A DNA stretch of 34,587 bases. Source: Sulfurovum sp. (GTDB lineage Bacteria > Campylobacterota > Campylobacteria > Campylobacterales > Sulfurovaceae). The DNA is taken from positions 1-34,587 of the forward strand of contig JAAXPZ010000081.1 of the NCBI GenBank assembly GCA_012329065.1. Reading direction: 5' to 3'. The position numbers and the translations under genes were made by a program. Shown here piece by piece: positions 12,534-26,839 of this stretch; the stretch's first letter is position 1, and the number at the start of each line of letters is the position of its first letter. The notes below the pieces were generated by a model. The model searched no databases. It worked only from the letters and a program-made list of their open reading frames with translations, and was not told where the DNA came from.

Positions 12534-13406
12534 ATGATAAGAAAAATGATTTTACCTATTTTACTCACAGTAAGTAGTTATTTAGGAGCTAATGTAAATG
12601 CCGTAGTGAGCATAATGCCACAAAAGACATTTGTAGAGGCCATAGGAGGAGACAAGGTAAATATAACACTTATGGTCAAGCCTGGAAGTTCTCCACATAC
12701 ATACGAGCCAAAACCATCACAGATGAAAGACATATCAAAGGCAGACATATATTTTTCTATCGGAGTTGAGTTTGAAGAGGTGTGGCTTGCAAAGTTTCAA
12801 AACCAAAACAAAGAGATGAAAATAGTAAATTCTTCTAAAGGCATAGATAAAATTGCTATGGTCGAACATGTACATTCACATGATAAACATGAAGAACACA
12901 AAGAACACAAAGAACATACAGACCACAAAGCACATAAAGACCCTCATGTTTGGACTGACCCAGAAAATGTAAAGATCATAGCCCAAAACATATATAATGC
13001 TCTCATTAGAGCAGATAAAGAAAATTCTAAATACTATAAAGAAAATTTTGATAAATTCATAGAGCATATAGATAAAACAGATAAGCAGATAAAAGATATA
13101 ATACAAGGAAGAGAGTTAAGGCTTATGGTCTTTCATCCTGCTTGGGGTTACTACTGCAAGAGATACGGCTTGAAGCAAATTCCAATAGAAGTAGAAGGTA
13201 AAAATCCAAAACCAAAAATGCTCATGCATATCATATCTCAAGCCAGAAAAGAGAAAGTAAATGTAATATTTACCAGTCCTGAGTTTTCTGATGTAGTAGC
13301 TAAAAAAATAGCAGGAGAGCTAGGTATACCAGTTGTCAAGATTAGTCCGCTAGCAAGAGATTGGAGTAGTAACCTAATTAACCTAACAAAACAAATCGTA
13401 CGCTAA
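12534..13406 (+). CDS. znuA: Zinc ABC transporter substrate-binding protein
   Basis: A 290-residue cluster A-I metal-binding lipoprotein-like or periplasmic protein that hands zinc to an ABC permease. There is a signal peptide at residues 1-20 (MIRKMILPILLTVSSYLGAN). Metal-site histidines are visible in GSSPHTYEPKP, DPHVWTDPENV and VFHPAWGYY, with the acidic ligand probably in FTSPEFSDV. Between the first two lies a histidine- and acid-rich loop (HVHSHDKHEEHKEHKEHTDH), the mark of zinc rather than manganese binders. The C-terminus (KISPLARDWSSNLINLTKQI) is normal. No permease or ATPase gene follows, so ZnuB and ZnuC must be elsewhere. Transcription is probably controlled by the divergent regulator. 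Confidence 0.9.
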   Translation: MIRKMILPILLTVSSYLGANVNAVVSIMPQKTFVEAIGGDKVNITLMVKPGSSPHTYEPKPSQMKDISKADIYFSIGVEFEEVWLAKFQNQNKEMKIVNSSKGIDKIAMVEHVHSHDKHEEHKEHKEHTDHKAHKDPHVWTDPENVKIIAQNIYNALIRADKENSKYYKENFDKFIEHIDKTDKQIKDIIQGRELRLMVFHPAWGYYCKRYGLKQIPIEVEGKNPKPKMLMHIISQARKEKVNVIFTSPEFSDVVAKKIAGELGIPVVKISPLARDWSSNLINLTKQIVR

Positions 13407-24373: not shown

Positions 24374-26839
24374 ATGAATCAACTTCACATTTATCCAACA
24401 TCTAGAGCTCTGAGAACCATAAGTCAAAACTACAAAAACCAAGATGGTTTCTTGCCTACACTCATGCGTATGGACGAGTTTGAACAACGAGCCATACTCC
24501 TTGAGAATAAAATCCATATAGACCCCTTGCAACGTGTCTTACTTTTGCGTCAAGCAGCCTCATTTGATGCTTTTGAAGATTTGAAGTTAGACTTGTCCCT
24601 AGTACGGTTTTTTACCAAGAGTGATGCTTTGTTTAAGTTTTTTGAAGAGTTGGCAGGAGAGGGTGTAGGGTTTGCAACTCTGGCTGAAGCTGACGCGTAT
24701 GCTGAGTTCGGTACGCACTTAGAGATACTGGAGAGATTACTCTCAAACTATCATACTTTACTTGAGGCTAAAGGATTGATAGACAAAGCATTTATCCCGA
24801 ATAGCTACACACTCAACAAAGGTTTTTTAAGTAGCTATGAGAATATAGAGATACATTTGGAAGGGTACTTAAGTCATTTTGAATTGGCACTCTTGGAAGA
24901 AATTTCAAAACAAGTACCACTTACGCTTTATTACAGCACAAGCAAGTTTAATTTGAAAATGCAAGAGCGTTTTGAAACACTAGGTATTAAACTACCTAAG
25001 AACAAACACACACACTTCTCTTTATCGACCAAAGAAGTCTTAGAGGTTACAAACAATGATGACAGCGTAGAGGCACAGGTCTATGCAGTGGAAGAACGCC
25101 AAGAGCAGGTAGCCATTGCATTTAAAGAGATAGAACAAATGGTACGCTCTGGCATAAGTCCAGAGGAGATAGTCCTTATATTGCCTGATGAGAGTTTTAA
25201 AGAACATTTCACCCTTTTTGACACCCACAACAACCTAAACTTCGCCATGGGGTATGACTATAGTAATGGTCGTGTCTATAAATCTTTAGAGGCACTCTGT
25301 AAGTATTGGCAGAGTAGGGATGATAAGAGTAAAAAGTTACTTGAACGATATGGGTTTAATATAGAAGCGTTAGATGCATTGGCTAGTAGTAAAAAAATTA
25401 ATAGTGTAGATTTCTTTACTGTGATAGATGGGCTAGGATTGGCACCGAGGGAGTCAGGTGACAACGATTCATTGTCTTCAACAACAAATCATAATCACCA
25501 GACCCCTCTACCTCCAAGATTGGCACCGAGGGAGTCAGGTGACAATGATTCATTGTCTTCGACAACAAATCATAATCACCAGACCCCTCTACCTCCAAAG
25601 AAAGAGAAGTTCAATGAGCGTGTCTATGAAAAATACCTACACTTTATCAAGGTATTAGAAAATGAAGAGATGGGTTTAACTGAATGGCTTTTCTTGTGGT
25701 TAAAGTCCCTAAGTAAAGTTACCATGGATGATGTGCGTGGTGGTTTGGTTACGGTCATGGGGGTACTAGAAACTAGGGGTGTGAGATTTGAGGGCGTAGT
25801 CATAGTAGACTTCAATGAAGGCGTAGTACCTGCCACATCGAGTAAAGACCAGTTTTTAAACTCACAGGTGCGAGCCTTTGCAAACCTACCCACAAAACAT
25901 GACAGAGAAGCCCTACAAAAGCAGTACTACAAACGCTTACTAGAACAGGCTTCACAGTCTGTGATACTCTATAGTACTTCAGACAGTAAGTTGCCCTCTA
26001 AGTTTCTCTATGAGTTGGGCTTAGGTGAAGCAGTACAGACACAAGCGCAGTTTGACTTGCTGTATAGTCAGGAGTCACAACTTGTGAGTGCTACACCTAT
26101 TGTTGTGGAGTTTGACCCCAAGAGTATTGTTTGGTCAGCGTCTAGGTTAAGAGTGTATTTGGAGTGTAAATATAAGTACTATTATCAATACACCTTAGGT
26201 ATACACGAAAAGCAAAGAGATGAGATGAATGAAGGGCAGTTTTTACATAAGCTTTTAGAGAAGTTGTTTTCTCAAACATCAAGCTATGCCTCAAAAAAAG
26301 AGATGCAAAAAAACATAGATATGCTACTTGATACACTTTATTTAGAAAAAGGCTCAAAAGTAGCATACCAAAAGCTCTTATGGAAAGAGAAGCTAAAAGG
26401 TTTTGTTTCTTCTCAGTTAGAGCACTTTGATACTGGGTGGAAAGTTTTGCATAGGGAAAAAGAGTTTCAAGGTGAGATAGCTGGACTTAGGTTTAAAGGA
26501 CGCATAGACCGCATAGACCAAAATGATACAGATACACTGGTGCTTGACTATAAGTCAGGTAGAGTAGAAAAAGAGCCAAAAACGTTAAATCCAGATAAGA
26601 TAACAGACTTTCAGATGCCCATTTACCAACAACTTCTTTCAGGGAAATACCAAAACATATCTTTGGCATTTTTGAAAATACTTGATAATGGAGAGATGCA
26701 AGAAGTGAAGCACCTAGAAGAGAGAAATACACTCCTAGAAGAACAAATAGCTATACTTAGAAACGCCACATCTTTTACGGTGGAAATGTGTGATGTTTCT
26801 AAGAAGTGTAGGTTTTGTGAAGATGTGTTAATGCTCTAA
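24374..26839 (+). CDS. addB: AddB-type helicase-nuclease subunit (PD-(D/E)XK family)
   Basis: The 821-residue subunit of the RecBCD-like AddAB complex that processes double-strand ends for recombination. The N-terminal half is an inactive helicase-like fold (IYPTSRALRTISQNY at the start). Later come VVIVDFNEGVVPATSS and YYKRLLEQASQSVILYSTSD. The C-terminal nuclease shows FKGRIDRID and DYKSGR (about residues 710-730), and four cysteines, C598 and the CDVSKKCRFC cluster at the C-terminus, fit the 4Fe-4S staple of AddB. Residues about 356-409 are an unusual hydrophilic tandem insertion (see 25439-25600). The start is ATG 24374 with no ribosome site. Confidence 0.85.
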   Translation: MNQLHIYPTSRALRTISQNYKNQDGFLPTLMRMDEFEQRAILLENKIHIDPLQRVLLLRQAASFDAFEDLKLDLSLVRFFTKSDALFKFFEELAGEGVGFATLAEADAYAEFGTHLEILERLLSNYHTLLEAKGLIDKAFIPNSYTLNKGFLSSYENIEIHLEGYLSHFELALLEEISKQVPLTLYYSTSKFNLKMQERFETLGIKLPKNKHTHFSLSTKEVLEVTNNDDSVEAQVYAVEERQEQVAIAFKEIEQMVRSGISPEEIVLILPDESFKEHFTLFDTHNNLNFAMGYDYSNGRVYKSLEALCKYWQSRDDKSKKLLERYGFNIEALDALASSKKINSVDFFTVIDGLGLAPRESGDNDSLSSTTNHNHQTPLPPRLAPRESGDNDSLSSTTNHNHQTPLPPKKEKFNERVYEKYLHFIKVLENEEMGLTEWLFLWLKSLSKVTMDDVRGGLVTVMGVLETRGVRFEGVVIVDFNEGVVPATSSKDQFLNSQVRAFANLPTKHDREALQKQYYKRLLEQASQSVILYSTSDSKLPSKFLYELGLGEAVQTQAQFDLLYSQESQLVSATPIVVEFDPKSIVWSASRLRVYLECKYKYYYQYTLGIHEKQRDEMNEGQFLHKLLEKLFSQTSSYASKKEMQKNIDMLLDTLYLEKGSKVAYQKLLWKEKLKGFVSSQLEHFDTGWKVLHREKEFQGEIAGLRFKGRIDRIDQNDTDTLVLDYKSGRVEKEPKTLNPDKITDFQMPIYQQLLSGKYQNISLAFLKILDNGEMQEVKHLEERNTLLEEQIAILRNATSFTVEMCDVSKKCRFCEDVLML
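25439..25600 (+). repeat. Tandem 81-bp palindromic element inserted in frame in addB
   Basis: Two copies, 25439-25519 and 25520-25600, are nearly identical (few substitutions such as acaacg/acaatg and ttcaac/ttcgac). Each encodes LAPRESGDNDSLSSTTNHNH then QTPLPP. Each copy is a large imperfect palindrome: GAGGGAGTCAGGTGA (25447-25461) pairs with TCACCAGACCCCTC (25495-25508) apart from single mismatches, with a smaller inner hairpin GACAA/TTGTC. The length, 27 codons, keeps the frame. It looks like a mobile palindromic element of the kind seen in Rickettsia coding genes, duplicated once; identity to any named family is not claimed. Confidence 0.7.

Follow-up and report, generated by a model that had tools for sequence, protein, structure and literature searches.

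A palindromic, probably RAYT-linked miniature element in frame within addB of Sulfurovum and dispersed in Sulfurovaceae

The window, a stretch of 34,587 nucleotides, is contig C30 of a Sulfurovum sp. genome (1.94 Mb, 82 contigs) and carries on its forward strand an open reading frame of 821 aa (24374 to 26839), which is AddB-type by similarity; a Pfam PD-(D/E)XK match was obtained on its orthologue in genome G176. Within this frame, TRF detected an 81-bp unit in 2.0 copies with 97% matches at 25437 to 25598, corresponding to two units of 27 codons each (25437 to 25517 and 25518 to 25598), through which the frame stays open. A sequence-only reading of this DNA had already described two near-identical in-frame copies of 27 residues in addB, which we could confirm, and its coordinates, 25439 to 25600, denote the same array in another register. 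The units are identical in 79 of 81 positions, and both mismatches, C at 25465 versus T at 25546 (AAC/AAT) and A at 25480 versus G at 25561 (TCA/TCG), are synonymous changes at third codon positions. The resulting insert peptide reads RESGDNDSLSSTTNHNHQTP. The palindrome proper accounts for approximately 66 bp of each unit, the first copy (CCGAGGGAGTCAGG...CCAGACCCCTCTA) at about 25445 to 25510 (covariance model 25444 to 25510, ends pattern 25453 to 25506) and the second at about 25526 to 25591 (covariance model 25525 to 25591, ends pattern 25534 to 25587), while the remaining bases of each unit are flanking sequence copied together with it; as both copies helped to build the covariance model, their matches to it arise by construction. 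Folding of one copy led to -26.9 kcal/mol (z -4.2; 0 of 200 shuffles as good) and folding of the tandem pair to -61.6 kcal/mol (z -7.8), which means a strong hairpin for each copy, in agreement with the long hairpin proposed earlier. In an AlphaFold model of AddB, which is modest overall (pTM 0.54), the insert at residues 360-412 appears as a low-confidence loop. A separate short tandem repeat with periods of 9, 18 and 27 bp (AACATAAAG-like) was reported by TRF at 12886 to 12942 of the window.

The expectation of further copies in other genes of the same genome was borne out by BLAST, pattern and covariance model searches, which together revealed about 20 related copies lying in frame within genes, at gene ends or between genes. 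BLAST of the unit gave strong matches on contigs C61, C5, C68, C28 and C6 and a weak one on C29, the core pattern added three copies on C72, and the covariance model, which matches the copies it was built from by construction, added C53, C35 and C61:4259 among others. In-frame copies were found in pyrC (C61), hisH (C29, in tandem) and nadB (C35), with the nadB frame (877 to 2844 of locus L219, contig C35 of the source genome G000) remaining open through three separate tandem pairs, that is six copies of subfamily B. In the AlphaFold model of PyrC (pTM 0.81), whose best PDB match is 3pnu, the PyrC of Campylobacter jejuni, the insert at residues 67-106 is again a low-confidence loop. A copy on C61 adjoins or forms the 3' end of uvrB, another on C28 does so for an ACC-deaminase-like gene, and the C5 copy has the same context; the copies on C68, C72, C6 and C53 are intergenic.

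The ends of the element read GGGGTCAGGTGA..., with GGGGTCAGG as the usual end, and a pattern of both ends, GTCAGRY(25-55)CAGACCCC, matched in 51 of 175 Sulfurovaceae genomes, most of them drafts or MAGs, with at least 51 matches in the richest genome and 0-1 per genome for the reversed control. This pattern favours copies with intact ends, and a few matches are due to chance: four 41-nt matches in genus g10 sit in a native gene and not in an element. For genome G058, no strict-pattern copy was present among the matches listed. After merging by sequence of overlapping loci from contig sets and G-numbered genomes, the named loci carrying the element belong almost exclusively to Sulfurovum, Sulfurovaceae or Campylobacteraceae MAGs. 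Three subfamilies could be distinguished, namely A1 (GGGGTCAGGTGATTCATGATTCATTGCnnnGCAACAAATCACAAATCACCAGACCCC), A2 with inner arms like GTGAYAACGATTCAT...ACAAATCATNRTCAC (addB, pyrC, recG), and B with GGGGTCAGACCCGCAAACGATTCATTG...CAACAAATCATTTGAGGTCAGACCCC and some shorter relatives (hisH, nadB, alaS, pyrD). The hairpin is kept by compensatory change: over 21 A1 copies 93.9% of the cells are paired and 6 pairs show compensatory changes (equalled by 0 of 500 shuffles; slid controls 34-50% paired), the structure having been taken from the consensus of the same copies. Recurrent irregularities of the stem are an A.A mismatch close to the ends and further mismatches in its inner part. Rfam searches gave sub-threshold chance hairpins only and a structured RNA of a known family was rejected, as was a phage origin, since no match in phages and none of the A1 consensus in viral contigs was obtained.

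An AddB could be identified in 133 of 150 family genomes, and the best matches join residues 1-357 directly to residues 402-820, i.e. they are devoid of the insert. In the closest AddB, that of G150 (87% over the N-terminal part), GLGLHESPLVDGEKKEKF stands in place of the window's GLGLAPRESGDND..., and this nearest empty site is too diverged for a junction or target duplication to be read. A single copy at the same site is present in addB of G176 (GLGLAPRESGDNDSLSLTTNHNHQTPLQPLPAKKEK), which suggests that the insertion preceded the tandem. The recent slippage suggested earlier is compatible with one copy in G176 and two nearly identical ones in the source genome, slippage itself being our inference. 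All PyrC orthologues examined lack the insert. HisH is also without it in most genomes, and the others hold one copy, two copies or unrelated filler repeats in the loop; in loci L132-L161 the loop after GWNE was seen to contain a B element in several genomes and LEIRN- or MEDGR-type filler in others. As it can hold either the B element or quite different fillers, the loop looks like a general tolerance hotspot. G161 reads GGGGTCTGACCCC and differs here from G167 by 42 nt, in frame and located between direct repeats, which looks like the scar of a lost element. Taken together, we are dealing with a dispersed palindrome family with empty sites in relatives.

With location in a long ORF as a proxy for genes, 6 of 54 A1, 7 of 9 A2 and 16 of 38 B copies listed are genic, compared to 57% for 60-bp stretches drawn at random from these loci, and A1 differs from A2 and B combined (23/47; Fisher p 5e-5). 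Just one of six frames is stop-free in 36 of 54 A1 copies, and all 6 genic A1 copies use their single stop-free frame, while most genic A2 and B copies have 2-4 open frames. Genic copies are nevertheless biased toward one reading frame per subfamily: A2, a small sample, uses one frame in 6 of 7 genic copies and B in 13 of 16, the remaining three being of the short type, although these counts overstate independence because sites recur (hisH, recG, addB, nadB) by descent or as shared hotspots. Tandem spacings in genes or long ORFs (81, 66, 54, 57, 60 and 54) are all multiples of three; those outside genes are 48, 49, 50, 54, 63 and 113. Additional hosts are recG (in G019, G052, G115 and G172), mfd, alaS, hypF, an mnmC2-like gene, phosphomannomutase, an NFACT-domain gene, pyrD and a flavoprotein of the fumarate reductase/succinate dehydrogenase or NadB type. 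Among intergenic A1 copies, 16 of 48 have a Shine-Dalgarno sequence and the start codon of a long ORF near the GGGGTCAG end, mostly 17-27 nt off and reading away from it (e.g. L094, L080, L099, L262 and L323), compared to 2 of 48 on the other side and 6% for random intergenic points, which may reflect a bias in target choice or else a role as 5' leader.

Three Y1_Tnp genes over the cut-off are encoded in the source genome. The RAYT gene on contig C17 is bounded by GGGGTCAGGTAACAA and TTGTTACCTGACCTC, and when the flanks of 28 readable orthologues (the best-scoring ones, all of one RAYT clade) were inspected, an element-type end was detected upstream in 26 of 28 at a nearly constant distance and an inverted copy just after the stop codon in 14 of 28, with a chance rate of 3% per 140 nt. 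The end variants GGTGATAA and GGTGACAA of these RAYTs are those of subfamily A2. The C17-type protein matches Y1_Tnp (1e-15), with weak C-terminal HTH_23/HTH_28 matches below the Pfam cut-off, and from this Y1/HUH core and weak helix-turn-helix it would be a group 1-like RAYT (subclass 2.1). Most element copies and the RAYT repeats share GGGGTCAG, which fits GGGGWSAS; the addB copies read GGGAGTCAG at this position, one base off. Judged by sequence, the element ends equal the terminal inverted repeats of this putative group 1-like RAYT. As RAYTs of several clades occur in 137 of 175 family genomes, their mere presence is uninformative on an association. Copy number does not follow RAYT presence: G071, a draft of 81% completeness, has 51 copies and no RAYT was found in it. 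A second RAYT clade carries other repeats (GGGTCAGACGTTGAA), and the flank search of the family RAYTs revealed no RAYT or transposase with B-type ends. Further clades (L410, L414, L417, L409 and L416) have perfect inverted repeats of their own, 19-22 nt long and all sharing GGTCAG (e.g. GGGTCAGACGTTGAATATCCAC). Two single loci were also recorded: in L428 (contig C176 of G169, about 365-430) a RAYT gene fragment is immediately followed by an A1 element, and in L051, upstream of the C17 RAYT, its left end is preceded by stacked short direct repeats of GTCTAGGGGTCA, as would result from a stepwise addition of end fragments.

Among described systems, subclass 2.1 of TnpA-REP equals RAYT group 1, and a survey found no REP-like sequences near its genes (PMC6006769). 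This group probably corresponds to the TIRYTs, whose TIR repeats have GGGGWSAS ends (PMC3733652). Both the GGGGWSAS-type ends and the dispersed copies in dimers and clusters resemble these TIR repeats, and the Y1 transposase, about 255 aa long and with a helix-turn-helix at its C-terminus, resembles that of TIRYTs and RAYT group 1. Intragenic copies were analysed in PMC3733652 for GTAG and CGTC repeats and not for TIR repeats, whereas here dimers of the ends make up a family of hairpins that inserts into genes in frame and has coding and non-coding subfamilies. The intragenic GTAG and CGTC repeats of that study are similar in behaviour, adding 20-30 codons in frame and frequently hitting repair genes, recB and uvrB among them, but have other end tags. 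With REPINs of RAYT groups 2 and 3 the element shares two inverted ends and a spacer in one hairpin as well as a RAYT flanked by the same ends; however, the GT[AG]G foot of canonical REPs is absent from the aligned copies, which places the element outside that class on sequence grounds, its RAYT belongs to the long type with a helix-turn-helix, and the founding study described REPINs as essentially extragenic (PMC3116915). The earlier comparison with Rickettsia palindromic elements (RPEs) proved apt for behaviour, as these and the Wolbachia palindromic elements, which have been reported in addA and addB (PMC4224334), are in-frame palindromes in many unrelated genes and add tens of residues. 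Yet the element, which works like RPEs, is not one: it comes from another phylum and is set apart by its candidate transposase and by its ends, GGGGTCAGG being usual where RPEs carry a CGTC end tag, and GCGTCAGG occurring in a minority of copies only. RPE/CGTC repeats have no known transposase (PMC3733652).

Several other explanations had to be weighed. That the insert is a native, variable and hydrophilic AddB linker that happened to duplicate might be suspected from the length variation of AddBs at this site (L121, for example, has a longer linker), but the sequence is also present in unrelated genes and in intergenic DNA, and close AddB orthologues lack it. The sequence-only reading had named as the mark of such a linker that no other copy exists and all homologues carry the segment; neither was found, the AddB alignment instead revealing orthologues without it, and dispersed copies and empty sites lead us to reject a native linker as practically untenable. 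The insert might also go untranslated, with ribosomes bypassing the hairpin or the RNA being processed out, as known for hop/byp elements in mitochondria, and long stable hairpins within coding sequence would suit this. One open frame in genic copies, tandem spacings divisible by three and synonymous differences between the addB copies would all be needless if the insert were skipped, so that we regard this as very improbable. A function that keeps the element in place, with genes profiting from the linker peptide and intergenic copies serving as 5'-leader hairpins, could account for the single frame per subfamily and for the one-sided proximity of intergenic A1 copies to start codons. We nevertheless consider it quite unlikely, and tolerance fits better than need since the host proteins are unrelated, close relatives manage without the insert and the HisH loop in question also accommodates other filler repeats.

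Movement of the palindromes without a RAYT, by gene conversion, hairpin template switching or another transposase, would reduce the shared GGGGTCAGG ends to common ancestry. It would agree with a copy number that does not track RAYT presence, with the lack of matching RAYT ends for subfamily B, and with tandem partial copies including flank that resemble replication slippage. An A-type end at a near-constant upstream distance in nearly all inspected orthologues of one RAYT clade and the A2 variants in the RAYT ends argue against it, and we judge it unlikely.

We therefore favour a non-autonomous palindromic mobile element of about 66 bp, a REPIN-like miniature inverted-repeat linked to a RAYT, that is located in frame in addB and was later tandem-duplicated, and regard this as likely. 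The RAYT family probably moves it, and its most fitting classification is that of a RAYT/TIRYT-linked miniature element. The RAYT clade would act on the element as a folded single strand, process it at its GGGGTCAGG ends and copy or move it, in the way proposed for TnpA-REP and REPs. In addB, insertion in frame was probably followed by tandem duplication with a few flanking bases. Genic insertions would survive only when the frame is kept, a loop is hit and the element frame is free of stops, and the inserted peptide would then be a disordered linker, presumably mostly neutral to the host protein. A1, with stops in most frames of its arms, would be largely confined to intergenic DNA, and A2 and B, with open frames, could accumulate in genes; tandem gain and scar-like loss may both proceed via slippage or recombination between direct repeats. 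Only tentatively do we go further and propose that group 1-like RAYTs mobilise the palindrome family, that A2 and B evolved into a harmless hydrophilic linker in one fixed frame, and that genes are their normal habitat.

To our knowledge, RPEs have remained a puzzle since 2000 as in-frame genic palindromes without a known transposase. An RPE-like phenomenon is now seen in Campylobacterota, outside obligate intracellular lineages and with a candidate transposase, and its empty, single-copy and tandem states together with a probable loss scar make the individual steps open to testing. Group 1-like RAYTs gain a likely substrate, and the stop-rich intergenic versus more open genic subfamilies suggest that selection sorts mobile DNA by coding compatibility.
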